Source: Streptomyces sp. SID13726 (GTDB lineage Bacteria; Actinomycetota; Actinomycetes; Streptomycetales; Streptomycetaceae). Taken from it: DNA of 64,000 bases. Made by a program: the position numbers and the translations under genes. Positions 39,486 through 54,548 of this stretch are shown here, one piece after another. Position 1 is the stretch's first letter; each line of letters starts with the position of its first letter. The notes below the pieces were generated by a model. The model had not been told where the DNA came from. It saw only the letters and a list, made by a program, of their open reading frames with translations, and did not search any database. The stretch is taken from the NCBI RefSeq assembly GCF_010548375.1, contig NZ_JAAGLY010000001.1:682001-746000 (forward strand), given 5' to 3'.

Positions 39486-40507
39486 CGCCGGTCGTCGAGA
39501 TCCAGCAGCACCTTCGAGGCGACCCTCCGGTCGTGGGCGATGTCGAAGGCCGCGCGGGACTCGGCGAGCGGGAAGGTGTGGGTCACGATCGCGTCGACCG
39601 GGAGGTCCCCGGCGAGCAGGGTGAGGGCCTCGTCGAACTCCGTGTCGAAGCGGAAGGCCCCGCGCAGGTCGAGTTCGCGGGTGACGGCGATGTTGCCCAG
39701 GAGGGGGACCTCGCCGGGCGGCAGCAGGCCGAGGAGGACGACGGTGCCGCCGCGCCGGACGCGTTCCACGCAGGTGCGCAGGCCCGCGGGGGCTCCGGAG
39801 GCCTCGACGGCGATGTCGAACTCCCCGCCCCAGGCGCCGGGTTCGTCCGCACGGACCGTCGCGGTGGCGCCGGACGCCGAGGCGATCCGCAGTGGGGTCT
39901 CCAGGAGGTCGCTCACCACGACCTCGGCGGCGCCCCGGTGGCTCAGTACCGCGGTGACCAGACAGCCGATCGGACCGGCCCCGGTGACCAGGACCCGCCG
40001 TCCGCGCACGTCACCGGCCCGGTGCACGGCGTGCAGGGCCACCGACAAGGGCTCCGCCAACACCGCGCGGCGCAGGGGGAGTTCCGGCGGCAGTGGACGG
40101 ATCTGCGCGGCGGGCACGGTCACCCGCTGGGCGAACCCGCCCTGGACGTGCGGGGTGCGGGCGGCGCTGCCGAGGTAGCGGGTGTCCGCGCAGATGTTGC
40201 GGTGCCCGGTGGCGCAGTGGACGCACCGGTCGCACGGGGTGGCCGGGTGCACGGCGACCGGGGTGCCGACCGCGGGACCGTCGGTGCCGGGGCCGACGCC
40301 CGCGACACGGCCGACGATCTCGTGCCCGAGCACCATCGGCTCCCGCACGTCGAAGTCCCCGACCCGGCCGTGCCGGTAGTAGTGCAGATCCGAGCCGCAG
40401 ATCCCGCCGAGGGCGACCGACACGGTCACCTGACCGGGGCCGGCGGCGACGGGCTCGCGCTCCTCGACGCGGAGGTCTCCCGCCTTGTGGACGACGCAGG
40501 CGTGCAT
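39482..40507 (-). CDS. idnD: L-idonate 5-dehydrogenase-like zinc alcohol dehydrogenase
   Basis: 341 residues from the ATG at 40507, preceded by AAGGAG. Medium-chain dehydrogenase: catalytic zinc ligands in GGICGSDLHYYRHGRVGDF and LGHE, structural zinc Cys in CDRCVHCATGHRNIC, NAD(P)-binding VTGAGPIGCLV. The YYRHGRVGDF segment is typical of IdnD/sorbitol-type enzymes. With the IdnO-like gene upstream on the same strand it would convert L-idonate to 5-ketogluconate and on to gluconate. No gluconate kinase is nearby. Confidence 0.82.
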   Translation of the reverse strand: MHACVVHKAGDLRVEEREPVAAGPGQVTVSVALGGICGSDLHYYRHGRVGDFDVREPMVLGHEIVGRVAGVGPGTDGPAVGTPVAVHPATPCDRCVHCATGHRNICADTRYLGSAARTPHVQGGFAQRVTVPAAQIRPLPPELPLRRAVLAEPLSVALHAVHRAGDVRGRRVLVTGAGPIGCLVTAVLSHRGAAEVVVSDLLETPLRIASASGATATVRADEPGAWGGEFDIAVEASGAPAGLRTCVERVRRGGTVVLLGLLPPGEVPLLGNIAVTRELDLRGAFRFDTEFDEALTLLAGDLPVDAIVTHTFPLAESRAAFDIAHDRRVASKVLLDLDDRR

Positions 40508-40541
40508 GTGGACGTCTCCTTCGATCACTGGAACAGGGGCC

Positions 40542-41312
40542 TCACAGGACGGACAGCATGCCTCCGTCGACGTACAGCACCTGGCCGTTGACGAAGTCGG
40601 ACGCGGGGGAGGACAGGTAGATCAGGGCGCCCACCAGGTCCTCGACGTTCCCCCAGCGCCCGGCCGGGGTCCGCTTGCGGACCCACGCGCTGAACTCCTC
40701 GTCGGCGACCAGGGCCGAGGTGAGCTCGGTGTCGAAGTAGCCGGGGCCGATGCCGTTGACCTGGATGCCGAGCGGGCCGAGGTCGGCGCACATGCCCTTG
40801 GTGAGCATCTTCAGACCGCCCTTGGTCGCCGAGTAGGGCGCGATGCCGGGGCGGACCGCCTCGCTCTGCAACGAGCAGATGTTGACGATCTTGCCGTGGC
40901 CGCGCGGGGCCATGCGGCGGGCGACCTCGCGGCCCACGAAGAACGCGCTGGTGAGGTTGGTGTCGACGAGCCTGCGCCAGTCCTCGTCGGTGAACTCCAG
41001 CAGGGGCGTGCGGTGTTGGACCCCGGTGTTGTTCACGAGGATGTCGAGCGGACCCGTCTCCTCCTCGACCCGGGCGATCCCGGCCGCGACCTCCGCCGAG
41101 TCCGTGACGTCGAAGGCGGCCGTGCGCACCCGGTCCCCGAAGGCGGCGGCGAGTTCCGCGCGGGCCTCCTCCAGTGTCTTGGCGTCCCGGCCGTTGAGGA
41201 CGACCGTGCAGCCCGCCTCCAGGAGTCCCTTGGCCAGCGCCTTGCCGATGCCCCGGCTGGAGCCGGTCACCAGGGCCACCTTGCCGGTGATGTCGAACAG
41301 GGGGTGGCTCAC
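40542..41312 (-). CDS. idnO: Gluconate 5-dehydrogenase-like SDR (IdnO)
   Basis: 256 residues, classical short-chain dehydrogenase: cofactor loop TGSSRGIGKALA near residue 16, NNTGV near 93, catalytic Ser in NICSLQSE and Tyr-x3-Lys in YSATKGG near 160. The MFDLTGKVALVTGSSRGIG-type opening and PAGRWGNVEDLVGALIYLSS fit gluconate 5-dehydrogenases. It overlaps the upstream 2-hydroxyacid dehydrogenase by 4 bases and lies 34 bases before idnD, so all three form an operon. Confidence 0.84.
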   Translation of the reverse strand: MSHPLFDITGKVALVTGSSRGIGKALAKGLLEAGCTVVLNGRDAKTLEEARAELAAAFGDRVRTAAFDVTDSAEVAAGIARVEEETGPLDILVNNTGVQHRTPLLEFTDEDWRRLVDTNLTSAFFVGREVARRMAPRGHGKIVNICSLQSEAVRPGIAPYSATKGGLKMLTKGMCADLGPLGIQVNGIGPGYFDTELTSALVADEEFSAWVRKRTPAGRWGNVEDLVGALIYLSSPASDFVNGQVLYVDGGMLSVL

Positions 41313-42304
41313 GCGGCCACCCCCGCGCGGGCCGCCGTACCGGGAAGCGGGGTGCGGGCGGGCCGGCCGTCCAGGACGTCCAGGATGTTGTCGACGGCCA
41401 GGTCGACCATCGCCGCCCGGGTGGGCTCGGTGGCCGAGCCGATGTGCGGCAGCGTCACCACGTGCTCCTCCGCCACCAGCGGCGACAACTCCCGTCCCAT
41501 CGGCTCGCGTTCGTAGACGTCGAGCCCGGCGGAGTGCAGCCGCCGCGACCGTACGGCGTCCAGCAGGGCCGCCTCGTCCACGACCCCGCCGCGCGAGGTG
41601 CTGACGAGGGTGGCCGTGGGCTTCATCGCCGCCAGTTCGCGGGCCGCGATCAGATGCCGGGTCTCGGCGGTGAGCGGGACGTGCAGGGAGACGACGTCCG
41701 ACTCGGCGAGCAGCGTGGTCAGGCTCGCCGGGGTCGACAGGCCGTCGTCGGAGGTGACGTCCGCGTAGGGGTCGTAATGGAGTACGCGCATGCCGAATCC
41801 CTGCCCCCGGCGGGCCACCGCACGCCCGATCTGGCCGTAGCCGATCAGGCCCAGCGTGGCGCCGTGGACGTCCAGGCCCAGGTAGTCGTGCATGCGGAAG
41901 ACGTCCCAGGACCCGGCGGCGAGGCTCTCGGTCGCGGCGCCCAGGCGGCGGCGGGCGGCCAGGATCAGGGCGAAGGTGAGGTCGGCGGTGGTCTCCGCGA
42001 GGACGCCCGGGGTATGGGTGACGACCACACCGCGTTCGGCCGCGGCGGTCCGGTCCACGTTGTCGTAGCCCATGCTCGCCAGCGCGATCACCCGCAGGGA
42101 GGGGCCCGCCGCGTCCATCAGGGCGGCGTCGACGGGGTCGTTGCCCAGCGCCAGCACGGCGCTCACGCCCGGCGCCAGCGCGGCCAGGTCCGCGGGACCG
42201 GGCTTGGCGGCCGCGGACCAGGCCACCACGTCGGCCGCCTCGGACAACCGGTCGAGGCCGTGGCCGGGCAGATTCTCACGGGTGGTCAGCACACGCTTTT
42301 TCAT
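41309..42304 (-). CDS. D-2-hydroxyacid (glyoxylate/hydroxypyruvate) dehydrogenase
   Basis: 331 residues from the ATG at 42304 (MKKRVLTTRENLPGHG); an upstream frame extension is rejected. NAD-binding GLIGYGQIGRAVARRGQGF near residue 147, catalytic Arg in STSRGGVVDE, Glu in YEREPMG and His in LPHIGSATEPTR are all present. It is probably a 2-ketogluconate or hydroxypyruvate/glyoxylate reductase. It lies 55 bases downstream of the LysR gene on the same strand and could be co-transcribed with it. Confidence 0.85.
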   Translation of the reverse strand: MKKRVLTTRENLPGHGLDRLSEAADVVAWSAAAKPGPADLAALAPGVSAVLALGNDPVDAALMDAAGPSLRVIALASMGYDNVDRTAAAERGVVVTHTPGVLAETTADLTFALILAARRRLGAATESLAAGSWDVFRMHDYLGLDVHGATLGLIGYGQIGRAVARRGQGFGMRVLHYDPYADVTSDDGLSTPASLTTLLAESDVVSLHVPLTAETRHLIAARELAAMKPTATLVSTSRGGVVDEAALLDAVRSRRLHSAGLDVYEREPMGRELSPLVAEEHVVTLPHIGSATEPTRAAMVDLAVDNILDVLDGRPARTPLPGTAARAGVAA

Positions 42305-42359
42305 GGCGTGGACGCTAACCGCGACAGGGGCCGGAGACAAATAGCAATTCGATGTGACG

Positions 42360-43256
42360 CTATTGCTGTTCCTTATCCAGGGCGGTGACCAGTTCCAGGA
42401 AAAGATCGTGCACGGCGAGTGCGGGCTCGGAAAGCGGCTGGCCGTCCGCGGTCACCACGGAGAGTTTCACCGGGATCACCGGGTCCACGATCCGGCGCAC
42501 CGCGAGCGCGCGGACGTCGAGGATCGCGCGGGCGGCCGACCAGGGCAGGACCGTGGCCCCGAGCCCCGCGTCCACGGCGTTGACGAGGGTCAGCGCGGAC
42601 TCGACCTCGCCGACCACCCGGGGCCGCAGCGAGGCCTGCTGGAACGCGGAGTCGACCACCTGCCGGATGGTGTGGATACGGCTCGGGAGCAGCAGCGGCA
42701 CCTCCGCGAGCTCCTCCAGCGGCACCTCGCCCGCCCCGCCGGGCGCGCCGATCAGGAACAGGTCCTCGGAGCGTATGGGCTCGAACTGCACCCCTTTGAG
42801 CGGCCCGGCGCCGTAGATGAACGCCATGTCCATCCGCCCGGTCATGATCGCTTCGCTGATCACCCCGCCGAAGTTCTCGTTGATGTGCAGCAGGATGCCG
42901 GGGTAGCGCTCGCGCACGCTCTTGAGCAGGGGGAGCGCGAGGGCCGCGCCCATGCTGTACGGGGCGAGGCCCACCGACACCCCGCCGGCGGGGGCCCGGC
43001 CCGAGACCTCCACGGCCGCGTGCGCGAGGTCGACCTGGCGGAGGATGAGCTGGGCGTGCCGGTACAGCGCCCGGCCCGCCTCGGTCGGGGCGATCCCGCG
43101 CTTGCTGCGGATCAGCAGCTGCTGCCCGAACTGCGCCTCCAGTGCCGAGAGCTGCTGGCTGAGGGCGGGCTGCGCGATGTGCAGGATGTCCGCCGCGCGC
43201 GTGATGCTCCCCGCGTCGACGATCTTGATGAACGAGTAGAGACGCCTGGTGTCCAT
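42360..43256 (-). CDS. LysR-family regulator
   Basis: 298 residues from the ATG at 43256, with GGAGGG upstream. The HTH is near residues 1-60 (LYSFIKIVDAGSITRAADIL, PALSQQLSALEAQFGQQLLI) and the substrate-binding domain follows. The N-terminal half resembles Nac/Cbl-like members. It diverges from the pxpABC operon and lies in front of the 2-hydroxyacid dehydrogenase/idnOD set, so it may control both. Confidence 0.87.
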   Translation of the reverse strand: MDTRRLYSFIKIVDAGSITRAADILHIAQPALSQQLSALEAQFGQQLLIRSKRGIAPTEAGRALYRHAQLILRQVDLAHAAVEVSGRAPAGGVSVGLAPYSMGAALALPLLKSVRERYPGILLHINENFGGVISEAIMTGRMDMAFIYGAGPLKGVQFEPIRSEDLFLIGAPGGAGEVPLEELAEVPLLLPSRIHTIRQVVDSAFQQASLRPRVVGEVESALTLVNAVDAGLGATVLPWSAARAILDVRALAVRRIVDPVIPVKLSVVTADGQPLSEPALAVHDLFLELVTALDKEQQ

Positions 43257-43455
43257 GCGGGGCCCTCCGATCGAGCGGAGCCTCATCGTAGGGAGCGGGG
43301 CGTGTGACCCGGGTCATAGCGGTCCGCGATAACGCCAAAGTGAACGCGTATTGGTCGCCGGGCGAGCGGCGCACTACGTTGTGGGAAACACATTCCAGGC
43401 CGTGCCGCCAAGGCGCCGGAATTCCTTTTCTTCTTTTCCTCGTTCGGAGGGCCCC
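43257..43455. promoter_or_regulatory. Divergent LysR/pxpA promoter with TGACCCGGGTCA palindrome
   Basis: A perfect 12-bp palindrome TGACCCGGGTCA lies at 43305-43316, 48 bases upstream of the LysR start. A second partial dyad (ATAACGC near 43329 with GCGTATT near 43346) fits a LysR-type activation site. A T/C-rich tract precedes the pxpA ribosome site (CGGAGG). Confidence 0.55.
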
Positions 43456-44238
43456 ATGACGCATACGGTCGATCTCGTGGCCGATCTCGGCGAGGGATTC
43501 GGCGCCTACACGATGGGCGACGACGAAGCCCTTCTCGAATTGCTGACGTCGGCCAATGTCGCCTGCGGATTCCACGCCGGGGATCCGCGCATCATGGACA
43601 CGACGGTTCGGCAGTGCGTGGAGAAGGGCGTGGCCGTCGGCGCGCACCCGAGCTTCCCCGACCTCGTCGGGTTCGGGCGCCGCGCGATGGACCTGACCCC
43701 GGACGAGGTCCGCACCGACGTGCTCTACCAGGTCGGCGCGCTCCAGGCCTTCGCCGTCGCCCACGGCACCCGGGTCCGCCATGTCGCCCCGCACGGCCGC
43801 CTCGGGAACCTGGTCGCCGTGCGCGACGACTACGCGCGGGCCGTCGTGGACGCGGTCGCCGCCCTCGACCCGTCGCTGATCGTCCTCGCGCAGGACGGCG
43901 AACTCGCCGACGCGGCCCGCAAGCGCGGGCTGCGCGTGGGGATCGTCGGGATCGCCGACCGGGCCTACCGCGACGACGGCACGCTCGTGCCGCGCTCCGA
44001 ACCGGGGGCCGTGATCCACGACGCCGAGGAGATCGCCCGGCGGACGCTGAGGATGGTCACGGAGGGGGTGATCCGCAGCGTCGGCGGACGTGACGTCCCC
44101 GTCGACTGCGACACGGTCCTCCTGCACGGCGACACCCCGGGGGCACTCGCCCTGGCCGCCCGGGTCCGGGAGCAACTCCTGGCGGCAGGCGTGAAGTTCG
44201 CCGCTCTGGACGAGGTCCTCGACGCCAAGGGGGCCTGA
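43456..44238 (+). CDS. pxpA: 5-oxoprolinase subunit A (LamB/YcsF family)
   Basis: 260 residues with the YcsF signature VDLVADLGEGFGAYTMGDDE at the start, NVACGFHAGDPRIM near 35, GAHPSFPDLVGFGRRAM near 62 and the C-terminal VLLHGDTPGALALA. PxpA with PxpB and PxpC cleaves 5-oxoproline (pyroglutamate) to glutamate with ATP. It is the first gene of the operon, and pxpB follows after one base. Because the operon continues with an aminotransferase and an aldolase, the real lactam may be a substituted oxoproline. Confidence 0.88.
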   Translation: MTHTVDLVADLGEGFGAYTMGDDEALLELLTSANVACGFHAGDPRIMDTTVRQCVEKGVAVGAHPSFPDLVGFGRRAMDLTPDEVRTDVLYQVGALQAFAVAHGTRVRHVAPHGRLGNLVAVRDDYARAVVDAVAALDPSLIVLAQDGELADAARKRGLRVGIVGIADRAYRDDGTLVPRSEPGAVIHDAEEIARRTLRMVTEGVIRSVGGRDVPVDCDTVLLHGDTPGALALAARVREQLLAAGVKFAALDEVLDAKGA

Positions 44239-44239
44239 C

Positions 44240-44989
44240 ATGACCGGCCACCTCACCGTCAAGGACTGCGGTGACTCCGCCGTCGTCGCCAGGGCCGTCG
44301 GCCTCGACCAGGAGGCCGCCTGGCGGCTCGTGCACACGCTCGCCGACGCTCTCGACGCCGTGCACCTGCCCGGTGTGCACGGGCTGGTGCCGGCGTACGA
44401 CGCGCTGCTCGTGGAGTTCGACTGCGCGGACACGGGCCACGAGACCGTACGACGGCTGCTGTGGCACGAGGCCGCACGGCTCGGCGTCGATCCCGGGCCC
44501 ACGGCCGCGCCCCGCCGTTTCGTCGTCCCCGTCGTCTACGGCGGTGAGCACGGCCCCGACCTGCCCGTGGTCGCCGCCCAACTCGGCCTGACCGAGGGCG
44601 AGGTGGTCGCCCTGCACTCCGGGTCCGACCTCACCGTGCGCTGCCTGGGCGCGCCCGCCGGAGCGCCGATGACGGACGGACCGCCCTTCCCGGTGCCGGT
44701 GCCCCGGCTGGCCTCGCCCCGTACCCGGGTCGACCCCGGCTCGGTCGCCGTCGCCGGCCGCCAGGCGGTGATCTGCCCGATGCCGTCCCCCGGCGGCTGG
44801 CCCCTCCTCGGCCGCACCCCGGTACGCGTCCTCGACCTCCATGCCGACCCCCTCACGCCGTACCGGCCCGGAGACACGTTCCGGTTCGTGCCGATCGGGG
44901 CGGAGCGGTGGGGGGAGTTCGCGGGGGTGTCGCTGGCGGAGTGTGCGGAGGGACGGGCGGATGGCCCGAGGCTGGTCCGGCATGGCTGA
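44240..44989 (+). CDS. pxpB: 5-oxoprolinase subunit B
   Basis: 249 residues of the KipI/allophanate hydrolase subunit 1 family: LTVKDCGDSAVVARAVGLDQ at the N-terminus, VYGGEHGPDLPVVAAQLGLT near 95, ASPRTRVDPGSVAVAGRQ near 155 and PGGWPLLGRTPVRVLDLHAD near 180. It forms the ATP-using complex with PxpC. The 3' end overlaps pxpC by 8 bases. Confidence 0.88.
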   Translation: MTGHLTVKDCGDSAVVARAVGLDQEAAWRLVHTLADALDAVHLPGVHGLVPAYDALLVEFDCADTGHETVRRLLWHEAARLGVDPGPTAAPRRFVVPVVYGGEHGPDLPVVAAQLGLTEGEVVALHSGSDLTVRCLGAPAGAPMTDGPPFPVPVPRLASPRTRVDPGSVAVAGRQAVICPMPSPGGWPLLGRTPVRVLDLHADPLTPYRPGDTFRFVPIGAERWGEFAGVSLAECAEGRADGPRLVRHG

Positions 44990-45980
44990 CACCCTCACCG
45001 TCCGTACCCCCGGTCACACCACCGTCCAGGACCTCGGCCGCACCGGTCGCTCCCGGCACGGCCTCCCCGCCAACGGAGCCCTCGACCAGCACTCCGCCCG
45101 CGTGGCCAACATCCTGTGCGGGAACGACGAGCGCGCGCCCCTGCTGGAGCTGACCGCCCTCGACTTCGCCTGCGTCCCCTCCGCCGACATCCTCGTCGCG
45201 GTCACCGGCGCCCCCGCCGACGTGACCGTCTCCGCCGCCCCCCGACCCCAGTGGGAGCCGTTCGTCGTCCGCGCCGGGGAGCCCCTCCGCGTCGCCGGCA
45301 TCCGGCAGGGACTGCGGGTCTACCTCGCCGTCCTCGGGTCGGTCGAGACCGAGTACCTCCAGGGCAGCTGCGCCCCCGACACCGTCCTCGGCTTCGGCCC
45401 CGCCCTGCGTGCCGGTGACGAACTCACCCTGCGCGCCTCCTGCCCGCCCCTCGACCACCCCTACTCCCGCATCCCCCTCTTCCGCCTGGCCGCCCCCGCC
45501 GCCGCCGCCTTCCCGGCGACCACGTGGACCATCGACGTCACCGACGGCCCCGACCGGGCCGAGTTCGGCGACACCGCATCCCGGCTCTTCGGCGCGCCCT
45601 TCACCGTGAGCCCGCGCAGCAACCACATCGGACTGCGGCTGGGCAGCGAAGGGCGCCTGCCCCGTCGTACCGATACAGGCGAAGTGCTCTCCCGGGGCGT
45701 ACCGATCGGCGCCGTCGAGGTGCCCGCCGGGGACGAACTCCTCGTCCTGCACCGCGGGCGCGGTGTGACGGCCGGCTACCCCGTCCTCGCCGTCGTCACC
45801 GCCACCGGCCTCTCCGCCCTCGGCCAGGTCCGCCCCGGCCAGGCCCTCCGCTTCCGGCACCGCACCCTCGACGAGGCGGTCACGGCGTACCGCGCACAAC
45901 GCGCCGCCGTGGACGCGCTCCGGGCCAGGGTCCGCACCGCCTTCGACACCCTCCGCATTCCGGTCCACGCCGGCGGCTGA
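44982..45980 (+). CDS. pxpC: 5-oxoprolinase subunit C (biotin-dependent carboxylase fold)
   Basis: 332 residues from ATG 44982; an ATG at 44961 with GGAGGG upstream is an alternative and adds 7 residues. KipA-type opening LTVRTPGHTTVQDLGRTGRS, then HGLPANGALDQHSARVANIL near 30, SPRSNHIGLRLGSEG near 220 and GYPVLAVVTATGLSALGQV near 265. It pairs with PxpB. Confidence 0.87.
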   Translation: MADTLTVRTPGHTTVQDLGRTGRSRHGLPANGALDQHSARVANILCGNDERAPLLELTALDFACVPSADILVAVTGAPADVTVSAAPRPQWEPFVVRAGEPLRVAGIRQGLRVYLAVLGSVETEYLQGSCAPDTVLGFGPALRAGDELTLRASCPPLDHPYSRIPLFRLAAPAAAAFPATTWTIDVTDGPDRAEFGDTASRLFGAPFTVSPRSNHIGLRLGSEGRLPRRTDTGEVLSRGVPIGAVEVPAGDELLVLHRGRGVTAGYPVLAVVTATGLSALGQVRPGQALRFRHRTLDEAVTAYRAQRAAVDALRARVRTAFDTLRIPVHAGG

Positions 45981-46019
45981 CCCCGACTGCCCCGCGTATC
46001 CGGGCCCAGACACCACAGG

Positions 46020-46051
46020 CCCCGCCCCCGCCCCCTCCCCCGCCCGCCCCC
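46020..46051 (-). other. Guanine-quadruplex-forming tract
   Basis: Six C-runs of 3-5 bases separated by single bases lie on the plus strand, so the minus strand has six G-runs with 1-nt loops, a very strong G4 pattern. It sits in the 120-bp gap between pxpC and the MFS gene, within an operon, where it could pause transcription or replication. Confidence 0.6.
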
Positions 46052-46100
46052 ACCGAGCCGAGCCCACCTCATCCCGCCCCTCCTCCCCGACAGGAGAGCC

Positions 46101-47414
46101 ATGAGCACCGTGGCCGCCGCTCAGCCGATACCGAACACCGTCGATCCCAGAACCGCCCGGAAGATCACCCTCGCCGGATGCGTCGGCATCTTCGCCGAGC
46201 TCTACGACAACGGCATCTTCGGCTTCATGGCCGGCACCCTCGCCGCCGTCTTCTTCCCCGGCTCCGAGAACGCCGTCCAGCTCGTCTTCCTCGGCTACGC
46301 CGTGTCGTTCTTCTTCCGCCCCCTCGGCGGGATCATCTGCGGCCACCTCGGCGACCGCATCGGCCGCCAGCGGATGCTGGTCTTCGTCATCATGCTGATC
46401 AGCGTCGCGACCGCCGCCATCGGCGTCCTGCCGACGTACGCCAGCATCGGCGTCGCCGCCCCCGCCCTGCTGATCCTGCTCCGCGTCGCCCAGGGCTTCT
46501 CCGTCGGCGGCGAGGCCTCCGGCGCGATGAGCTTCCTCGCCGAGCACGCCCCCGAGGGCAAGCGCGGGCTCTACACGAGCTACGCCCAGATCGCCTCGTT
46601 CCTCTCCCTGCTCACCGGCACCCTGATCGCCGCCGCCATGACCAGCGGACTCGGCGCCGAGCGCATGGAGTCCTGGGGCTGGCGCATCCCGTTCCTGCTC
46701 GCCGTGCCGCTCGGCATCACCGGCATCTACATCCGCAAGCGGATCAGCGACACCCCCAACTTCACGCGCCTGCAAGAAGAGGGCGGTCTGTCCAGGAACC
46801 CGCTCAAGGAGGCGTTCTCCTCCGCCGAGCACCGCCGCGCGATGCTGCTCGCCCTGTTCATCCCCCTGATGAACGGCTCCGGCTACTACGTCCTGTTCAG
46901 CTACATGCCCACCTTCATGAGCAGCGAGCTGGACTTCAGCAAGGTCCAGGGGCTCCTCGTCACCGCGTCCAGCCTGGTCGCGATCTGTATCGCCATCCCG
47001 TACATGGGCCGGCTCTCCGACCGGGTCGGCCGCAAGAAGGTCATCGCCGGGGCCGCGGTCGCCATGGCCGTCGTGGGCATCCCCTGCTACCTCCTGATCG
47101 GCACCGGCAACGTCGCACTCGCCGTCCTCGGCGCCTGTCTCATGGCCCTCGTCTTCGCCGGGCACACCGGTGTCATCCACATCCTGCTCGTCGAGCTCTT
47201 CCCGACCCGGGTCCGCTACTCCGCCTACGGCCTCGGCTACAACGTCTCCGCCGCCCTCTTCGGCGGCACCGCCCCGCTGCTCATGACCTACCTCATCGAC
47301 CGCACCGGCGACGTCCACATGCCGGCCTACTACGCCGTCGTCACCGCCCTGGGCACGCTCCTCGCCGTGTCCCGGGTCAAGGACCGGGCCCATCTGCCCC
47401 TGCGCGACGTCTGA
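46101..47414 (+). CDS. MFS transporter, metabolite:H+ symporter type
   Basis: 437 residues, 12 membrane helices. The MHS-family signature between helices 2 and 3 (GHLGDRIGRQRMLVFVIMLI) and its repeat between helices 8 and 9 (GRLSDRVGRKKVIAG) are present. FFRPLGGIICGHLGDRIGR is typical of carboxylate/betaine symporters such as KgtP, ShiA and ProP. The ATG follows CAGGAGAG. Position inside the operon suggests it imports the lactam or organic acid handled by the neighbouring enzymes. Confidence 0.88.
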   Translation: MSTVAAAQPIPNTVDPRTARKITLAGCVGIFAELYDNGIFGFMAGTLAAVFFPGSENAVQLVFLGYAVSFFFRPLGGIICGHLGDRIGRQRMLVFVIMLISVATAAIGVLPTYASIGVAAPALLILLRVAQGFSVGGEASGAMSFLAEHAPEGKRGLYTSYAQIASFLSLLTGTLIAAAMTSGLGAERMESWGWRIPFLLAVPLGITGIYIRKRISDTPNFTRLQEEGGLSRNPLKEAFSSAEHRRAMLLALFIPLMNGSGYYVLFSYMPTFMSSELDFSKVQGLLVTASSLVAICIAIPYMGRLSDRVGRKKVIAGAAVAMAVVGIPCYLLIGTGNVALAVLGACLMALVFAGHTGVIHILLVELFPTRVRYSAYGLGYNVSAALFGGTAPLLMTYLIDRTGDVHMPAYYAVVTALGTLLAVSRVKDRAHLPLRDV

Positions 47415-47450
47415 CACCCCCCCGAAAAACACCGAACAAGGAGCACCCGC

Positions 47451-48194
47451 ATGCCCATCTCCGACTACAGGACCGCACTCGTCACGGGAGCGTCCACCGG
47501 AATCGGAGCCGTGGTCGTGGAACGCCTGGCCAAGCGTGGGCTCGAAGTCCACGCCGTGGCCCGCAACGCGGAACGCCTCGAAGCCCTCGCCGACGCCACC
47601 GGCTGCGTCCCGCACGCCGTCGACATCACCGACACCACCGCGCTCACCGCCGCCCTGGGCGGCCTGGAGATCGACGTCCTCGTCAACAACGCGGGCGTCT
47701 CCCGCACCGGCAACATCCTCACCGCCGACGAGTTCGCCGTGGACGAGCAGGTCGCCGTCAACATCCAGGCCGTGCTGCACCTCGTACGGCTGCTCATGCC
47801 GGGCATGGTCGAGCGGGACCTCGGCCACATCGTCAACATCAGCTCCATCGCCGGGGTCTACAACTTCGGCGGCAACACGATCTACCACGCCACCAAGGCC
47901 GCCGTGCACACCCTCTCCCGCCAGCTGCGGGTCGACGGCTACGGCAAGCGGGTCCGGGTCACCGAGATCTGCCCCGGCCGGGTGGAGACCGAGATCTTCG
48001 GCCGGCTCCTCGGCGACATGGCGGAGGCCCAGCGGCAGTTCTACGACGGCTACGAGTCCCTCAAGCCCGAGGACATCGCCGACTCCATCGAGTTCGCCGT
48101 CGACTCGCCCCGGCACGTCAACATCGGCCACATCGAGATCCTGCCGACCTTCCAGGTCCCCGGCGGCCTCAACTTCGAGCGCAGGGAGGGCTGA
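47451..48194 (+). CDS. Short-chain dehydrogenase
   Basis: 247 residues: VTGASTGIGAVVVERLAKRG near residue 11, NNAGVSRTGN near 80, catalytic Ser in NISSIAGVYNFGG and Tyr-x3-Lys in YHATKAAV near 150, then CPGRVETEIFGR. NAD(P)-dependent; it probably oxidises a hydroxyl of the operon's substrate. AACAAGGAGC gives a good ribosome site, and the next gene starts 4 bases after the stop. Confidence 0.86.
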   Translation: MPISDYRTALVTGASTGIGAVVVERLAKRGLEVHAVARNAERLEALADATGCVPHAVDITDTTALTAALGGLEIDVLVNNAGVSRTGNILTADEFAVDEQVAVNIQAVLHLVRLLMPGMVERDLGHIVNISSIAGVYNFGGNTIYHATKAAVHTLSRQLRVDGYGKRVRVTEICPGRVETEIFGRLLGDMAEAQRQFYDGYESLKPEDIADSIEFAVDSPRHVNIGHIEILPTFQVPGGLNFERREG

Positions 48195-48198
48195 TCGC

Positions 48199-49416
48199 AT
48201 GCCTACGGCAGCACGGGTCCGCCGTATCAAGCCCTCGCCCAGCACGGCGGCGGCCCAGCGCGTCCGCGAACTCAAGGCCCAGGGCCACACGATCCTCGAC
48301 CTGACCGTGGGCGAGCCCGACTTCGACACCCCCGACCACGTCAAGGCGGCCGCGATCCGCGCGATCGAGGCGGGGGAGACCAAGTACACGCCGGTGAACG
48401 GCACTTCGGAGCTGCGCGCGGCGATCAGGGGCAAGCTCCTGGACCGCCACGGCCTGAAATACGACGACTCGCGGATCACCGTCGGCGGCGGGGCCAAGCA
48501 GGTCATCTTCCTCGCGCTCATGGCCACCCTGGACGAGGGCGACGAGGTCGTCGTACCGGCCCCGTACTGGGTGTCGTACCCCGACATGGTCCGCGCCAAC
48601 GACGGCACCCCGGTGATCGTCGACTGCCCGGAGTCCGACGGCTTCAAGCTGACCCCGGCCGGCCTGCCGGCCGCCCTCACCGACCGCACCCGCTGGCTGA
48701 TCCTCAACACCCCCGGCAACCCGACCGGCGCCGCCTACACCACCGGCGAACTCCGGGCGCTCGCCGAGGTGTTGCTGGACCATCCGCAGGTCCGCGTCCT
48801 CACCGACGAGATCTACGACGAGATCTGGTACGACGAGGGTGCCGGGCTGTCCCTCGCCGCCGCCGAACCCCGCCTGGCCGACCGGGTGTTCCTCACCAAC
48901 GGGGTCTCCAAGACGTACGCCATGACCGGCTGGCGGATCGGCTACGGGGTCGGTCCGGCCGACCTGGTGACCGCGATCAACACCCTCCAGTCGCAGATCT
49001 CCTCCTGCCCGTCCTCCGTCAGCCAGGCCGCCGCGGCCGCCGCGCTCACCGGACCGCAGGACTTCGTCCGGGAGACCGTCGAGGTGTACCGGGCCCGCCG
49101 GGACACCACCGTCAAACTCATCGGCGAGATACCGCAGTTGAGCTGCACCAGCCCGAGCGGCGGCTTCTATCTGCTGGTGAACTGCCGTGCGGCGCTGGGC
49201 CGGTCGACCCCCTCCGGTGAACTCCTGCGAGACGACGAGGACTTCGCCCGCTACCTCCTCGACCGTGAACAGGTGGCGGTGATCCACGGCTCCGCGTACG
49301 GCGCGCCCGGCTACTTCCGTATCTCCTTCGCCACGTCGGCGGACGTCCTGACCGAGGCGTGCGCGCGTCTCGCCGCCGCCTGTGCCGAACTGACCCCGTC
49401 CGAAAGGCCGTCATGA
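48199..49416 (+). CDS. PLP-dependent class I aminotransferase
   Basis: 405 residues from the ATG at 48199, preceded by GCAGGGAGGG; longer readings are overlap. Fold-type I features: LTVGEPDFDTPDHVKAAAI near 34, NTPGNPTGAAYT near 170, PLP lysine in TNGVSKTYAMTGWRIGYG near 237, and the substrate Arg in YFRISFA near 385. It resembles aspartate aminotransferases (AspC/AspB type). It likely converts the amino acid released by PxpABC into a 2-oxo acid. The TGA overlaps the next ATG. Confidence 0.88.
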   Translation: MPTAARVRRIKPSPSTAAAQRVRELKAQGHTILDLTVGEPDFDTPDHVKAAAIRAIEAGETKYTPVNGTSELRAAIRGKLLDRHGLKYDDSRITVGGGAKQVIFLALMATLDEGDEVVVPAPYWVSYPDMVRANDGTPVIVDCPESDGFKLTPAGLPAALTDRTRWLILNTPGNPTGAAYTTGELRALAEVLLDHPQVRVLTDEIYDEIWYDEGAGLSLAAAEPRLADRVFLTNGVSKTYAMTGWRIGYGVGPADLVTAINTLQSQISSCPSSVSQAAAAAALTGPQDFVRETVEVYRARRDTTVKLIGEIPQLSCTSPSGGFYLLVNCRAALGRSTPSGELLRDDEDFARYLLDREQVAVIHGSAYGAPGYFRISFATSADVLTEACARLAAACAELTPSERPS

Positions 49417-50087
49417 TCCGCGTCAGCACGAAGTTCGACCGTCCCGCGCCGGAGTTGGTCGAGCGGCTCGGCACGTACTCCTCGGCCACCATCCACGAAG
49501 CGCAGGGCAGGCTCGGCGCGCTGGACTCGTCCATCAAGCCGGTCGACCACCGCATGTCGCTGTGCGGACCCGCGTTCACGGTCCAGTGCGCGCCCCGCGA
49601 CAACCTGATGCTCCAGACCGCCATCGCCTACGCCCGCCCCGGCGACGTGGTCGTGGTCTCCGCCGGCGCCTACACCGAGGCCGGCTCCTTCGGTGACGTC
49701 CTCGCCAACGCCTGTCAGTCCAAGGGCCTCGCCGGCCTCGTCACCGACACGGGCGTTCGCGACACCGAGGACCTGCGCGCCCTCGGCTTCCCGGTCTTCT
49801 CCCACAGCGTCTGCATCAAGGGCACGGTGAAGGAGACCGTCGGCCCGATGTGCGAACCGGTCACGATCGGCGGCCAGTTGGTGCGCCCCGGTGACGTGGT
49901 CCGCGCGGACGCCGACGGCGTGGTGGTCGTCCGCCGCGAGGACGCCGAGCAGGTGGCCGAGGCTTCCCGGCAACGCGTCGACACCGAGGCCGAGTACATC
50001 GCCGCGTACCGGGCCGGGAAGACGGTGACGGAGATCTGCGGACTGGAGCCGCTCCTCGCGGCCAAGGGACTGGTCATCGAGGAGTAG
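49413..50087 (+). CDS. RraA-family aldolase (HMG/CHA aldolase type)
   Basis: 224 residues from ATG 49413, overlapping the previous stop. RraA fold: SSATIHEAQGRLGALDSSIK near 24, GPAFTVQCAPRDNLML near 52, and the catalytic/metal-binding GLVTDTGVRDTEDLRALGFP near 105, which keeps the Arg-Asp pair of active aldolases. Members split 4-hydroxy-4-methyl-2-oxoglutarate to two pyruvates or decarboxylate oxaloacetate. Here it would act on the oxo acid made by the aminotransferase. Confidence 0.85.
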   Translation: MIRVSTKFDRPAPELVERLGTYSSATIHEAQGRLGALDSSIKPVDHRMSLCGPAFTVQCAPRDNLMLQTAIAYARPGDVVVVSAGAYTEAGSFGDVLANACQSKGLAGLVTDTGVRDTEDLRALGFPVFSHSVCIKGTVKETVGPMCEPVTIGGQLVRPGDVVRADADGVVVVRREDAEQVAEASRQRVDTEAEYIAAYRAGKTVTEICGLEPLLAAKGLVIEE

Positions 50088-50234: not shown

Positions 50235-51323
50235 ATGCGGGAGTCGGCGCGGCAGCGGCAGGCCCGGATCGCGGAGCTGGTGCGCGTGCGGGGGGTCGCG
50301 CGGATCGCCGACCTCGCCGACGAGCTCGGGGTCTCCGTCGTCACCGTGCGGCGGGACGTCGAGGAACTGGCGCACCGGGGGGAGGTGCGGCGGGGGCACG
50401 GGGTGGCGCGGTCGCTGCGGCCGGTGCCGGAGCAGAGCCCGGCCGGCGGGGACGCGGTCGCCATGATCGTGCCCGAGCGCAACACCTACCTCACCGACGC
50501 CGTCCAGGGCGCCCGGGAGGCCGCCGAGAAGGCCGGACTCCGCGTCGAACTGCACATCGCGCCCGGCGACGGCGGCGCCGAGCGCGAGGCGGTGCGCCAG
50601 GCACTGGACGGCGGCGCGCGCGGCCTGCTGCTCTCCCCGCACTGGCGCACCCGCGCCGAGGAGCTGGACGCGGACCACTCCTGGCTCACCGAACTGGACG
50701 TCCCCGTCGTCCTGGTGGAGCGCCGACCCGCCCGCACCAGCGCCATCTACCCCATGGACTCGGTCCGTTCGGACCACGCCTACGGCGTCCACCTGGCCCT
50801 GGAGCACCTGACCGCCCTCGGCCACCGCCGTGTCGTCCTGGCCGCCCGCGACGACAGCCCCACCGCCCGGGTGATCCGCGGCGAGTTCGCGGGCCAGACC
50901 GGTGCGAGAGGCCTCGCCGAGGGCTGCCGTACGATCCTCAGCTCCCGCGCCGCCGGCCCCGACCCGTCCGCCGCCGGCCCCGGCGCCGCCGACCTCGTGG
51001 CCGCCGTGCGCGAGGCGGGCGCCACGGCCGTGCTGATCCACAGCGACATGGACGCCCTGGTCCTCGTGCAGCGGCTCCAGGCCGCCGGGATCGACGTGCC
51101 GGGACGCTGCTCGGTGGTGGCGTACAACGACGTCGTCGCCGACATGGGCCCGGTCCCGCTGACCGCCGTCGCCCCGCCCAAGACCGAGCTGGGCCGCATC
51201 GGCCTCGGACTCCTGCTGCGCCGCCTCGACGCGGCCCGCGAGGGACTGCGGCCCATCGCGACCCGGCACGTGGAACTGCTCCCGGGCCTGGTGGTGAGGG
51301 GATCGACCGCCCCGGCCCCCTGA
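50235..51323 (+). CDS. DeoR-type HTH fused to a LacI-type sugar sensor
   Basis: 362 residues. The N-terminal 60 residues are a DeoR winged helix (RQRQARIAELVRVRGVARIA, LADELGVSVVTVRRDVEELA), not a LacI helix-turn-helix. From about residue 75 the protein is a LacI/periplasmic-binding-like sensor (VAMIVPERNTYLTDAVQGAR, LALEHLTALGHRRVVLAA, CSVVAYNDVVADMGPVPLTA). It should repress the following uptake operon until a sugar binds. The gene is 102 bases upstream of the binding-protein gene on the same strand. Confidence 0.86.
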   Translation: MRESARQRQARIAELVRVRGVARIADLADELGVSVVTVRRDVEELAHRGEVRRGHGVARSLRPVPEQSPAGGDAVAMIVPERNTYLTDAVQGAREAAEKAGLRVELHIAPGDGGAEREAVRQALDGGARGLLLSPHWRTRAEELDADHSWLTELDVPVVLVERRPARTSAIYPMDSVRSDHAYGVHLALEHLTALGHRRVVLAARDDSPTARVIRGEFAGQTGARGLAEGCRTILSSRAAGPDPSAAGPGAADLVAAVREAGATAVLIHSDMDALVLVQRLQAAGIDVPGRCSVVAYNDVVADMGPVPLTAVAPPKTELGRIGLGLLLRRLDAAREGLRPIATRHVELLPGLVVRGSTAPAP

Positions 51324-51425
51324 TTTGTTCGTTTGACCGCTTTATTTTCTTCTGTTCGATCCATTGACGCTTTTTTCGTCGCCCGCCCAAGATGCTGATG
51401 ACCCAGCAGAGACGCGGGAGGCCCC
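51324..51425 (+). promoter_or_regulatory. AT-rich promoter region of the sugar ABC operon
   Basis: This is one of the AT-richest stretches of the window. TTGACG (51364-51369) is followed at 18 bases by CAAGAT (51388-51393), a plausible sigma-70-type promoter. Two related blocks, TGTTCGTTTGAC near 51328 and TGTTCGATCCATTGAC near 51354, look like repeated operator half-sites. Confidence 0.5.
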
Positions 51426-52730
51426 ATGCCCGGCCGACGTGCCGCCGTACTGATCGTCACCGTCGCCCTGATCCTGGCGGGCTGCTCCTCCTCCAGGAGC
51501 GGCACCGGCACCGGGAGCGGGCCCGTGCACCTCACCTTCTGGTCGGCCCTGCGCGGCACCCAGGAGGTCGTGGACGAGTACAACCGCAGCCAGGACAGGA
51601 TCCGCGTCGACTACCAGCAGGTCCCCTCCGGACCCCAGGGCGGCTGGGCCAAGCTCAGCAACGCCGCCCGCGCCGGCAACGCCCCCGACGTCGCCACCAT
51701 GGAGTACCCCCAGCTCCCCGGCTACGCCATCGACGGCGTCCCCCGCGACCTCACCGACCTGCTCCCCGCCTCGGTACGCGCCGAGTTCCTCCCGCAGGCC
51801 CTCGACCTGACCACCCTCGACGGCCGTGTCTACGCCGTACCGGTGGACATCGAGCCGATGATGTTCTTCTACCGCAAGGACGTCTTCACCAAGTACGGCA
51901 TCCAAGTCCCCAGGACCTGGGCGGAGTTCGAGACCGCGGCCCGCAAGCTGAAGAAGGCCGACCCCGGCACCCGGATGGCCAGCTTCTTCACCAACGGCTC
52001 CCAGCACATGGCCGGTTTCGCCTGGCAGGCCGGCGGCCAGTGGTTCAGGGCCGTCGGCGACACCTGGCGGATCACCATGGCCGACGCCCCGACGAGCAAG
52101 GTCGCCGCCTACTGGCAGAACCTCGTCGACCAGGACCTGGTCCGGGTCGAACCGGTCGACAGCCAGCAGTGGCGGGCCCACCTCCAGAACGGCGAGACGG
52201 TCGGCTACATGGCAGGCGCCTGGGCCGCGGGCTCCCTGATGAAGTCCACCCCCGACGGCAAGGGCAAGTGGGCCATCGCCCCCCTCCCGCAGTGGAACCC
52301 CGCCGAACCCTCGCTCGGCACCCAGGGCGGCTCCACCTTCGCCGTCACCAAGGACAGCCGACACCCCAAGGAGGCACTGGAGTTCATCACCTGGATGGTC
52401 ACCAGCCCGGACGCCCTGCGCGCCAAGCTCTCCAGCGGGGTCAGCAGCGCCTACCCCGCCGTACCGGCACTCGTCCCCGTGGCCCGCAAGGAGATGGACA
52501 CCTCCTACTACTCCGGCCAGGACATCTTCGGCCTCTTCCAGCAGTCCGCCGAACTCATCTCCCCGCGCTGGCAGTGGGGTCCGCGGATGACCTCCACGAT
52601 CACCTCCGTCGAGGACGGCTTCGCCAAGGCGGGCGCAGGCAGCGGCAGCATCATCGGCTCCCTGCGCGAAGGAGAACGCCGGACCCTGCCCGATCTGAAG
52701 AGCCTCGGCCTGTCGGTGACGACCAAGTGA
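51426..52730 (+). CDS. Sugar ABC transporter substrate-binding lipoprotein
   Basis: 434 residues. A lipobox ILAGC places the lipid-bearing Cys at residue 19; a Ser/Gly linker and a family 1 extracellular solute-binding fold follow (VHLTFWSALRGTQEVVDEYN, GNAPDVATMEYPQLPGYAID, PVDIEPMMFFYRKDVF, GGSTFAVTKDSRHPKEALEF). It captures an oligosaccharide or sugar acid outside the membrane. Trp-rich segments (FAWQAGGQWFRAVGDTWR) are typical of sugar-stacking sites. First gene of the transport operon. Confidence 0.9.
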   Translation: MPGRRAAVLIVTVALILAGCSSSRSGTGTGSGPVHLTFWSALRGTQEVVDEYNRSQDRIRVDYQQVPSGPQGGWAKLSNAARAGNAPDVATMEYPQLPGYAIDGVPRDLTDLLPASVRAEFLPQALDLTTLDGRVYAVPVDIEPMMFFYRKDVFTKYGIQVPRTWAEFETAARKLKKADPGTRMASFFTNGSQHMAGFAWQAGGQWFRAVGDTWRITMADAPTSKVAAYWQNLVDQDLVRVEPVDSQQWRAHLQNGETVGYMAGAWAAGSLMKSTPDGKGKWAIAPLPQWNPAEPSLGTQGGSTFAVTKDSRHPKEALEFITWMVTSPDALRAKLSSGVSSAYPAVPALVPVARKEMDTSYYSGQDIFGLFQQSAELISPRWQWGPRMTSTITSVEDGFAKAGAGSGSIIGSLREGERRTLPDLKSLGLSVTTK

Positions 52731-52740
52731 GGTGCACCCC

Positions 52741-53709
52741 GTGAGCACAGTCCTTACCCCCGGCGAACGCACGGGGACCAAACCGCCCGCCCCGAGCGAG
52801 CCCCGCCCCCGCCGCGCCGGCCGCCGTCAGCAACTCCTCGCCTGCGCCACGCTCCTGGCCCCCTTCACGGCCCTGCTCGTCGCCGTCTTCCTCATCCCGG
52901 TCGGCTACGCGATCTACCTCAGCCTCTTCTCCCAGGACCACGAGGGCCTCGGCTTCGGCGGCGGCACCACCGTCTTCACCGGCCTGCGCAGCTACCTCGC
53001 GGTCCTCGGCGACCCGAGCTTCCGCTCCGGCTTCGGCGTGATCGCCCTCTACTGCCTGATCTTCGTCCCGGCGGTCGTCGTCGGCGCGCTCGCCCTCGCC
53101 CTGCTCCTGGACTCCGGCCTGGTCCGGCTGCGGCGCACCGCGCAGATGATGCTCTACCTGCCGCACGCCGTGCCCGGCATCATCGCCGCCGTCATCTGGC
53201 TGTACCTCTACACACCCGGACTCAGCCCCGTCATCAGGGCGTTCGGCGCGGCGGACATCCACATCGACTTCCTCGGCCTGCACACCGTGCTGCCCGCCAT
53301 CGTCAACATCGCCCTGTGGAGCGGCCTCGGCTACAACATGGTCATCTTCTACGCCGCCCTCCAGGCCCTGCCCCGCGAGGTGATCGAGGCCGCCCGCATC
53401 GACGGCGCGGGCGGGATGCGCACCGCGCTGCTCGTCAAGGTCCCCATCATCCGCGGCACCGTCGTGATGGTCTGCGTGTTCGCCCTGATCGGCGCGCTCC
53501 AGCTGTTCACCGAACCCACCCTGATGAACCAGGCCACCCCGATGGTCAACTCCCGCTACACGCCCAACATGTACATCTACGACGCCGCCTTCCGCCGCAA
53601 CAACTACGGCCTGGCGTCCGCCGCTTCCGTGATCCTCCTCCTCGTCACCTGCGCCCTGTCGTACGCGGTGACCCGCTGGACCGGCCGCAAGGAGCGCAGC
53701 CCCCGATGA
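52741..53709 (+). CDS. Sugar ABC transporter permease 1
   Basis: 322 residues from GTG 52741, preceded by GAGGTG; a GTG at 52732 is less likely. Six membrane helices and the MalF-type EAA loop (LPREVIEAARIDGAGGMRTA) that docks the ATPase. It works with the next permease; no ATP-binding gene is present, so the shared MsiK ATPase of Streptomyces is expected to power it. The stop overlaps the next ATG. Confidence 0.9.
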   Translation: MSTVLTPGERTGTKPPAPSEPRPRRAGRRQQLLACATLLAPFTALLVAVFLIPVGYAIYLSLFSQDHEGLGFGGGTTVFTGLRSYLAVLGDPSFRSGFGVIALYCLIFVPAVVVGALALALLLDSGLVRLRRTAQMMLYLPHAVPGIIAAVIWLYLYTPGLSPVIRAFGAADIHIDFLGLHTVLPAIVNIALWSGLGYNMVIFYAALQALPREVIEAARIDGAGGMRTALLVKVPIIRGTVVMVCVFALIGALQLFTEPTLMNQATPMVNSRYTPNMYIYDAAFRRNNYGLASAASVILLLVTCALSYAVTRWTGRKERSPR

Positions 53710-54548
53710 CCACCAGCCGACTCACCAGCCGCAGCGTCGCCAACGCCGTCGTCCTGATCGCGGCCCTCTACACCCTGCTGCCCGGCCTGTGGCTGCTGCT
53801 CGCGTCCACCAAGAACTCCGACGCGCTCTTCGGCAGCGACATCCTCTCCCTCGGCGACTTCTCGCTCGGGCAGAACCTGCGCGACCTGTTCTCCATGGAG
53901 GACGGCGTCTACGACCGCTGGTACCTCAACAGCCTCCTCTACGCCGTCGGCGGCGCCCTCGTCGGCTCGCTGATCAGCGTCGCCGCGGGGTACGCCTTCG
54001 ACAAGTACGCCTTCCCGCACAAGGAGAAGCTGTTCGGCCTCGTCCTCGCCGGAGTCATGGTCCCGCCGACCGTCCTCGCCCTGCCGCTCTACCTGGTGGC
54101 CTCCGGCATCGGCCTGGTCAACACCTTCTGGGCGGTGTTCGTCCCCGTCCTCTTCAACCCCTTCGGCGTCTACCTGGCCCGCCTGCTCAGCAACGGCTAT
54201 GTGCCCAACGAGGTGCTGGAGGCGTCCCGGGTCGACGGCGCGGGGGAGCTGCAGACCTACGTCCGGGTCAGCCTGCGCATGCTCGGACCCGGCTTCGTCA
54301 CCGTCTTCCTCTTCCAGCTGACCGCGATCTGGAACAACTTCTTCCTGCCGATGGTGATGCTCTCCGACGAGCACCTGTATCCGCTCAGCCTCGGCCTCTA
54401 CACCTGGAACAGCTCCGCCACCGTCTCACCCGAGTACTACCCGCTCGTCGTCATCGGCTCCCTGCTCGCCGTCGTCCCGCTGATCGTCGCGTTCGTGACG
54501 CTCCAGCGGTACTGGAAGTCCGGACTGACCGCCGGGAGCGTCAAGTGA
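53706..54548 (+). CDS. Sugar ABC transporter permease 2
   Basis: 280 residues from the ATG at 53706, overlapping the previous stop by 4 bases. MalG-type permease with six helices and the EAA loop (VPNEVLEASRVDGAGELQTY). It is the partner of the upstream permease. Its stop overlaps the following dehydrogenase start (GTGA). Confidence 0.9.
   Translation: MTTSRLTSRSVANAVVLIAALYTLLPGLWLLLASTKNSDALFGSDILSLGDFSLGQNLRDLFSMEDGVYDRWYLNSLLYAVGGALVGSLISVAAGYAFDKYAFPHKEKLFGLVLAGVMVPPTVLALPLYLVASGIGLVNTFWAVFVPVLFNPFGVYLARLLSNGYVPNEVLEASRVDGAGELQTYVRVSLRMLGPGFVTVFLFQLTAIWNNFFLPMVMLSDEHLYPLSLGLYTWNSSATVSPEYYPLVVIGSLLAVVPLIVAFVTLQRYWKSGLTAGSVK

Follow-up and report, generated by a model that had tools for sequence, protein, structure and literature searches.

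Aldolases of the 4-hydroxy-4-methyl-2-oxoglutarate/4-carboxy-4-hydroxy-2-oxoadipate (HMG/CHA) family split 4-hydroxy-4-R-2-oxoglutarates into pyruvate and R-CO-COOH, where R is methyl or carboxymethyl, and in the hydroxyproline/4-hydroxyglutamate route an aminotransferase is followed by a 4-hydroxy-2-oxoglutarate aldolase. 5-Oxoproline is opened by PxpABC 5-oxoprolinase, a three-subunit ATP-dependent lactamase encoded by pxpTABC in Corynebacterium glutamicum and pxpBCA in Escherichia coli, and the accessible part of PMC13274462 reports that growth of C. glutamicum on 5-oxoproline needs pxpTABC. Here, we analysed a 64,000-nucleotide stretch of Streptomyces sp. SID13726 (the window; NCBI RefSeq assembly GCF_010548375.1, contig NZ_JAAGLY010000001.1, positions 682,001 to 746,000 of the forward strand; source genome of 10.9 Mb in 923 contigs), in which homologs of pxpA, pxpB and pxpC share an operon with an aminotransferase and an RraA-type aldolase and stand back to back with an operon of sugar-acid dehydrogenase genes. 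With a probability of about 0.6, the encoded enzymes would open a lactam with a 4-hydroxy-4-(polyhydroxyalkyl)glutamate skeleton, transaminate the product and split it into pyruvate and a hexulosonate; the two divergent operons are best explained as one catabolic regulon.

The original prediction had described seven overlapping or closely spaced rightward genes, and all seven are present on the plus strand at 43456–50087 in the order pxpA-pxpB-pxpC-MHS-SDR-AT-RraA, with intergenic gaps of 1, −8, 120, 36, 4 and −4 bases. The complete PxpABC set, recognized with NCBIfam and Pfam, comprises pxpA (43456–44238; LamB_YcsF), a LamB/YcsF lactamase subunit with the altered residues A111, G117, V164, I166 and L222; pxpB (44240–44989; CT_C_D; TIGR00370 at 118.1 bits, under its cut-off); and pxpC (44982–45980; CT_A_B; TIGR00724 at 192.5 bits, under its cut-off). 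These genes are followed by an MHS-family transporter of the major facilitator superfamily, a putative importer (46101–47414; best match TIGR00883 at 349.4 bits, under cut-off), and by a YdfG-like short-chain dehydrogenase/reductase (SDR) of the 3-hydroxy acid dehydrogenase family, a putative ketone reductase (47451–48194). The pyridoxal phosphate-dependent aminotransferase (AT; 48199–49416) clears the cut-off of PRK06107, 'aspartate transaminase' (644.5 versus 617 bits), and among solved structures it is closest to those of aspartate aminotransferases B and A (6f35 and 6f77). The last gene (49413–50087) encodes a predicted RraA-type pyruvate aldolase that clears PRK09262, '4-carboxy-4-hydroxy-2-oxoadipate aldolase/oxaloacetate decarboxylase' (225.9 versus 179 bits). 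Its R116-D117 aligns with the Arg-Asp pair of the solved 3noj (E = 4.3e-51), bearing out the earlier observation that this pair is intact. A score over the CHA aldolase model would also suit an oxoproline or glutamate with a simple 4-substituent, such as a 4-hydroxy-4-methyl compound, that is degraded to two pyruvate-like acids, with the sugar-acid genes being mere neighbours; 4-hydroxy-4-methyl-2-oxoglutarate is a classic substrate of the family. Such a substrate would leave both the SDR and the 2-hydroxyacid dehydrogenase of the divergent operon without a task.

This divergent operon, nac-2HADH-g5dh-idnD, runs on the minus strand from 43253 down to 39482 with gaps of 19, −4 and 13 bases. The original prediction had limited the pathway to the seven rightward genes; these do form an operon, and the four divergent genes were omitted from what appears to be the same system. 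The nac-like LysR regulator (42360–43253) clears the PRK11233 NAC cut-off (342.1 versus 309 bits). It is followed by genes for a D-isomer 2-hydroxyacid dehydrogenase (2HADH) of the glyoxylate reductase family, a putative 2-keto-L-gulonate reductase (41309–42340), for a gluconate-5-dehydrogenase-like SDR (g5dh, 40542–41312; PRK07523, PRK08085), and for an L-idonate-5-dehydrogenase-like zinc alcohol dehydrogenase (idnD, 39482–40528; best NCBIfam match PRK09880). Both operons have one promoter region in common, and the nac–pxpA intergenic region carries a conserved block at 43313–43354, a putative LysR operator. When the window was aligned with 26 actinobacterial nac–pxpA regions, 21 of the 42 columns in the block were at least 90% conserved versus 22 of the 150 other columns, and the block has a single exact match within the window. 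A LysR regulator bound there could control both operons. This common promoter region speaks against an alternative in which a lactam amino acid and idonate/2-ketogulonate are used by separate plant-nutrient modules that stayed neighbours through a common habitat or plasmids; we consider this alternative unlikely even though many of the loci described below are located on plasmids.

Subsequently, to place the locus among its relatives, named genomes were scanned with nine RraA sequences, and of 568 confirmed relatives the 80 best, hence the closest ones, were taken as type I loci; these were found with RraA alone, and neighbours were scored within 10 kb at set identity thresholds. The closest RraA relatives of the window in this collection are from Streptomyces. 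The combination of pxpA, pxpC, AT and SDR was observed beside RraA in 27 of 32 actinobacterial loci (Streptomyces, Nonomuraea, Amycolatopsis and Saccharopolyspora) and 38 of 48 others (rhizobia, Devosia, Roseibium, Aquamicrobium, Paracoccus and more), so the gene set, whose order had been proposed as a search target, does recur in other genomes. Because these genes recur at loci found with RraA alone, the seven-gene association is not due to chance. The window SDR shares 60–63% identity with its counterparts in two alphaproteobacterial clusters, and the Arg-Asp pair is kept in all 80 RraA proteins. At least one of 2HADH, idnD and g5dh lies within 10 kb in 23/32 actinobacterial and 20/48 other loci, and all three do so in 7/32 and 16/48, counts that run low since the 10-kb flank clips the actinobacterial idnD position. 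The 2HADH gene is found in 21 of the 32 actinobacterial loci, together with nac in 20 of these. Given the genomic density of idnD (45 matches at E ≤ 1e-70 in 27 actinobacterial genomes that together comprise approximately 289 Mb), 32 loci of 20 kb should contain about 0.1 match by chance, and nine were observed; this estimate ignores shared descent. The mere presence of idnD in a genome was discarded as a cluster marker, being uninformative: all 27 cluster-bearing actinobacterial genomes have a match at this threshold.

Two further assemblies perform what may be the same list of reactions with other enzymes. In the first (type II; L207), MHS-pxpABC-SDR-AT faces RraA-2HADH, and its AT, SDR, RraA and 2HADH are 32–35% identical to their counterparts in the window. 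The type II AT was matched in 16 of 392 Streptomyces genomes, in 10 at 81% or above; after a locus on a 5-kb contig (L215) was dropped, nine remained, and all nine keep MHS-pxpABC-SDR2-AT2 facing RraA2 as well as the Arg-Asp pair. The 2HADH gene adjoins RraA2 in eight of the nine, with g5dh and idnD next in three. In the second (type III), found in rhizobia in the order LIV ABC-AT-nac-HyuA-HyuB-SDR-HpcH/HpaI aldolase, HyuA/HyuB replace PxpABC and an HpcH/HpaI aldolase replaces RraA, while AT and nac are 63% and 47% identical to the window proteins. We compared ten type III loci, namely L036 and nine picked for spread from 45 plasmid records; the AT is absent from its usual place in one (Terrarubrum, L263). 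In three of the ten (L264, L266 and L268), whose hosts are Microvirga ossetica, Agrobacterium larrymoorei and Neorhizobium sp. EC2-8, g5dh-(gntK)-2HADH-idnD directly follows the aldolase gene. Moreover, Rhizobium sp. RCAM05350 has a type III SDR and aldolase adjacent to a type I cluster and its sugar-acid genes, several of which gave only partial matches, and the window 2HADH is just 34% identical to the Paracoccus 2HADH of the same role.

It thus seems that enzymes were exchanged while the reaction list stayed, and, because 2HADH, IdnD and G5DH recur beside three assemblies with swapped enzymes, the lactam and sugar-acid halves would form one pathway; this is our strongest argument. The same recurrence counts against the simple 4-substituted substrate, which we judge quite improbable: the 4-hydroxy-4-methyl type named in the original prediction has no need for recurring 2-hydroxyacid, L-idonate-5- and gluconate-5-dehydrogenase-like genes. 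Of the 'pyruvate-like' products predicted, pyruvate itself is retained, and the second product is, given the sugar-acid genes, probably a hexulosonate. The proposed sequence of lactam opening, transamination and pyruvate-aldolase split is well supported by gene sets conserved in distant bacteria and by the two swapped-enzyme assemblies. Two independent modules would also have to account for the A. larrymoorei sugar-acid genes, which begin 10 bases past the type III aldolase gene, and for six type I Streptomyces loci (L151–L156) in which 2HADH still stands beside nac with neither idnD nor g5dh nearby; a gntK-g5dh-idnD set at a locus of its own (L157) in one type I genome is what independent modules would predict.

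Rhizobium johnstonii 3841 carries both a type I cluster on pRL10 (L149) and a type III cluster on pRL12 (L270); genes for alanine racemase and D-amino acid dehydrogenase come after the type III cluster. The pRL1004xx genes mentioned in the accessible parts of PMC11103875 and PMC5118466 could not be tied to the cluster of this strain.

Control loci separate these clusters from ordinary oxoprolinase genes. Among 20 further pxpA loci from relatives, 19 were canonical, and the twentieth was the type II cluster L207; AT, RraA, idnD and 2HADH were found at none of the 19 canonical pxp loci at the thresholds used. Conversely, pxp genes were found near none of 18 loci with other RraA genes (38–47% identical; 16 in other genomes and two in the source genome, G000). 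Elsewhere in the source genome (L214, G000:C222:352000-371900), three tandem RraA-family genes near 360063, 360713 and 361351 adjoin an aminotransferase that shares 49% identity with the type II AT, and neither pxp nor hyu was matched in this interval; the set is possibly a further aminotransferase-aldolase pathway. Three loci of other Streptomyces (L224, L225 and L226) likewise pair an RraA (44–48% identical, type II-like) with an AT (53–55%) near ABC ATPase genes, without pxp.

The PxpA proteins themselves differ between clusters and canonical loci. PxpA was recovered from 80 of 95 cluster loci (27/32, 44/54 and 9/9) at 60% or higher identity to a reference, the gene being absent, cut off or under threshold in the other 15, and was compared with 21 canonical proteins, defined as PxpA outside such clusters, of which the E. 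coli protein is the only one known to us to have been assayed. K111, Y117, E164, F166 and C222 (window numbering) are all present in 21/21 canonical proteins, E. coli included, and three PDB-chain alignments show the same K, Y, E, F and C. The 80 cluster proteins invariably have A/S/G/N at 111, G at 117, V/L at 164, I/L at 166 and L at 222, whereas D10, E13, H113, D168, R169, H224 and D226 are invariant in all 101. Furthermore, for a selection independent of resemblance to the clusters, we collected all PxpA proteins by Pfam family, with coordinates from tblastn, in 13 alphaproteobacterial genomes that hold an RraA ortholog and hence are not a random sample. K, E and C are changed in 13 of the 26 proteins, which come from 12 genomes, and kept in the other 13. 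Twelve of the 13 changed proteins adjoin AT or SDR genes. The set of 80 had included nine of the 13; of the four new ones three lie near AT and an RraA (L244/L258, L250/L259 and L252/L256). The remaining one (L243/L254) is isolated, and the type I cluster of its genome is without pxpA. For four of the 13 kept proteins 10-kb flanks were available, in which no AT or RraA was found and one 2HADH was present at 38%. Two PxpA genes beside TRAP transporter genes (L233 and L234) encode G117 with K111, E164 and C222 kept, possibly another PxpA subfamily.

The window PxpA scores over the subfamily models NF003814 and NF003816 and under every PxpA equivalog cut-off, as do PxpB and PxpC under theirs, whereas E. 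coli PxpA is over two. We abandoned these NCBIfam cut-offs as a test of function: they do not discriminate, because the canonical PxpA of the source genome is also under them.

These data bear on ordinary 5-oxoproline use, in which PxpABC would yield glutamate, AT would form 2-oxoglutarate or act on aspartate, and RraA would act as an oxaloacetate decarboxylase. The PxpABC annotation and the oxaloacetate decarboxylase within the name of the RraA model would fit, yet the source genome has a canonical pxpABC elsewhere, the signature residues are altered in every cluster PxpA, canonical loci carry neither AT nor RraA at the thresholds used, and the C. glutamicum pxpTABC cluster, in the accessible part of PMC13274462, names no aminotransferase or aldolase gene. 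We regard this explanation as very improbable and rejected it on the strength of the canonical pxpABC copy and the residue changes, in agreement with the original view that the substrate is something other than plain 5-oxoproline.

Taken together, the gene set suggests the following route. The MHS transporter would import a gamma-lactam, that is, a 5-oxoproline whose C4 bears a hydroxyl group together with a chain of polyhydroxyalkyl or polyhydroxyacyl type, and PxpABC, using ATP, would open it to a 4-hydroxy-4-substituted glutamate, whereby the former lactam carbonyl would become the C4-side carboxylate that an HMG/CHA-type aldolase needs. AT would convert the opened amino acid to a 4-hydroxy-4-R-2-oxoglutarate, which RraA would cleave to pyruvate and a six-carbon 2-oxo sugar acid; with a C4 polyhydroxy chain as R, R-CO-COOH would be a hexulosonate, to be reduced by 2HADH. 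Specifically, 2HADH would convert 2-keto-L-gulonate to L-idonate and IdnD would convert L-idonate to 5-keto-D-gluconate, steps also proposed, according to the accessible text of PMC11066805, in the grape tartrate route. Gluconate 5-dehydrogenase would then form D-gluconate. Alphaproteobacterial clusters contain gluconokinase genes (one checked, over the TIGR01313 cut-off), which fit this gluconate end of the pathway.

To our knowledge, ascorbalamic acid, reportedly described by Couchman et al. in Phytochemistry in 1973, is the sole natural compound with the required skeleton. In its lactam form it is our most likely candidate for the natural substrate, with a chance slightly short of even. The drawn lactam is C9H13NO8, matching the formula printed for ascorbalamic acid in the accessible parts of PMC3976912 and PMC9229034. 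On paper the formulas balance, with C9H15NO9 after opening, C9H12O10 after transamination, and pyruvate (C3H4O3) plus 2,3-diketogulonate (C6H8O7) after the split; if the SDR acted first, the sugar-acid product would be 2-keto-L-gulonate (C6H10O7), not 2,3-diketogulonate. As far as the accessible texts go, the compound is a putative name for a mass in 'Extract' in a potato cyst nematode hatching study (PMC9229034) and appears with diketogulonic acid in a list of metabolites that had increased in Fusobacterium nucleatum medium (PMC11438217); these and the PMC3976912 entry are assignments from untargeted mass data. A literature search, whose coverage left out most subscription journals, found in the texts it reached no account of bacterial breakdown of ascorbalamic acid, and its full-text part found no paper that treats any two of oxoprolinase, idonate 5-dehydrogenase, CHA aldolase and 2-ketogulonate together. 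We tentatively propose, at somewhat less than an even chance, an ascorbalamic acid pathway that returns ascorbate carbon as 2-keto-L-gulonate, feeds it by way of L-idonate and gluconate into central metabolism, and was built at least three times by soil and root bacteria. That these builds would use different lactamases (PxpABC, HyuAB), aldolases (two RraA types, HpcH/HpaI) and reductases for this one compound is possible and held with the same reserve.

Several points weigh against this reading. The individual reactions, the substrate and the relative order of the SDR and RraA steps are all inferred. The SDR would reduce a side-chain ketone before or after cleavage, and both this step and its place are guesses. 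In ascorbalamic acid, a plant conjugate of ascorbate and alanine, C2 of the former is bonded to the beta carbon of the latter, and the free compound would presumably form the lactam. The IdnD match to the PRK09880 L-idonate 5-dehydrogenase model, 298 bits, is below the curated cut-off of 469, so that the product is idonate-5-dehydrogenase-like at most; g5dh is likewise below both of its cut-offs (PRK07523, 357.9 versus 413 bits; PRK08085, 308.8 versus 408), and the Paracoccus counterpart, which is over the former (472.7 versus 413), thereby matches a model described merely as 'SDR family oxidoreductase'. The solved relatives nearest 2HADH are glyoxylate reductases, the third being a 'probable 2-ketogluconate reductase'. 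Alphaproteobacterial clusters (L033, L037, L100 and others) have accB, accC and a gene for a small family-less protein adjoining pxpB/pxpC. The PxpA tree places cluster and canonical forms on opposite sides with support of only 88/74 and some long branches. In the 13 PxpA with K, E and C retained, G or A occupies position 117 four times and Y occupies position 166 six times; because both positions vary in these proteins, neither is diagnostic of cluster PxpA.

To the same side belong gaps in distribution. Sugar-acid genes beside the clusters are frequent, not universal, which is what a simple substrate with incidental neighbours would predict: none of 2HADH, idnD and g5dh lies within 10 kb in 9/32 actinobacterial and 28/48 other type I loci (some clipped), idnD and g5dh were not seen in six of nine type II and seven of ten type III loci, and three of the 27 cluster-bearing genomes have no 2HADH match to the window query at E ≤ 1e-70. 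Near RraA, pxpA was not seen in 5/32 actinobacterial and 9/48 other loci, or in 2/26 and 7/41 when only loci with full flanks are counted. In L123 the lactamase genes lie just beyond the fetched stretch (L258), the L104 genome has a complete cluster at another place (L259), and in L085, a 4.9-kb contig, 2HADH stands beside RraA and a type II pxpA is present in the genome. In the L106 genome, however, no PxpA was found anywhere, only HyuA at 32%, and the sole PxpA type of the L069 and L076 genomes has canonical residues. Because of these three genomes, we conclude that RraA can occur without the cluster lactamase.

L069 (Streptomyces sp. L-9-10) has, at 7812–10672, a short idnD (729 bases) and a short AT (615 bases) less than 1 kb apart; the genes normally between them are gone, and an RraA match of intact length follows. 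It is probably a decayed cluster with an internal deletion. L101 belongs to a record named as a cyanobacterial metagenome-assembled genome (Kaiparowitsia implicata), whose cluster PxpA groups with Devosia and may be contamination. Downstream of the operon in the window, 50235–55585 holds a LacI-type regulator, sugar ABC transporter genes and a further D-2-hydroxyacid-dehydrogenase-like open reading frame, named from their translations, which look like a separate sugar-uptake operon.

If the proposed route is true, it would give a function to a widely conserved set that databases call '5-oxoprolinase', 'aspartate transaminase' and '4-carboxy-4-hydroxy-2-oxoadipate aldolase', define a PxpA subfamily with a different substrate, draw attention to a plant metabolite as a possible food of soil and root bacteria, and tie amino-acid-like lactams to sugar-acid metabolism through an aldolase. 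Compared with HMG/CHA aldolase (LigK/PRK09262, 3noj), the window RraA is of the same family, with the Arg-Asp pair and a score over the family cut-off, but it was not seen in an aromatic-ring pathway, and its proposed substrate has a sugar-like side chain. The hydroxyproline/4-hydroxyglutamate route likewise transaminates and then splits its substrate by a retro-aldol reaction to pyruvate and an oxo acid, but it has no lactam and no PxpABC, an unbranched C4, and glyoxylate as the second product. The same proposed steps from 2-keto-L-gulonate through L-idonate to 5-keto-gluconate, with clustered genes, are found in Aspergillus niger, where, according to the accessible text of PMC5306355, gluD and gluE encode 2-keto-L-gulonate reductase and L-idonate 5-dehydrogenase of D-glucuronate catabolism; the steps are fed there by D-glucuronate and here, as proposed, by the aldolase product. 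Finally, the lactamase subunits belong to the same families as those of PxpABC 5-oxoprolinase, and a transporter gene lies alongside, as in C. glutamicum pxpTABC, whereas the window differs in its altered PxpA residues, in the SDR, aminotransferase and aldolase that follow, and, on the evidence of the accessible part of PMC13274462, in the transporter family and in having a nac-like LysR regulator instead of the GntR-type PxpR.

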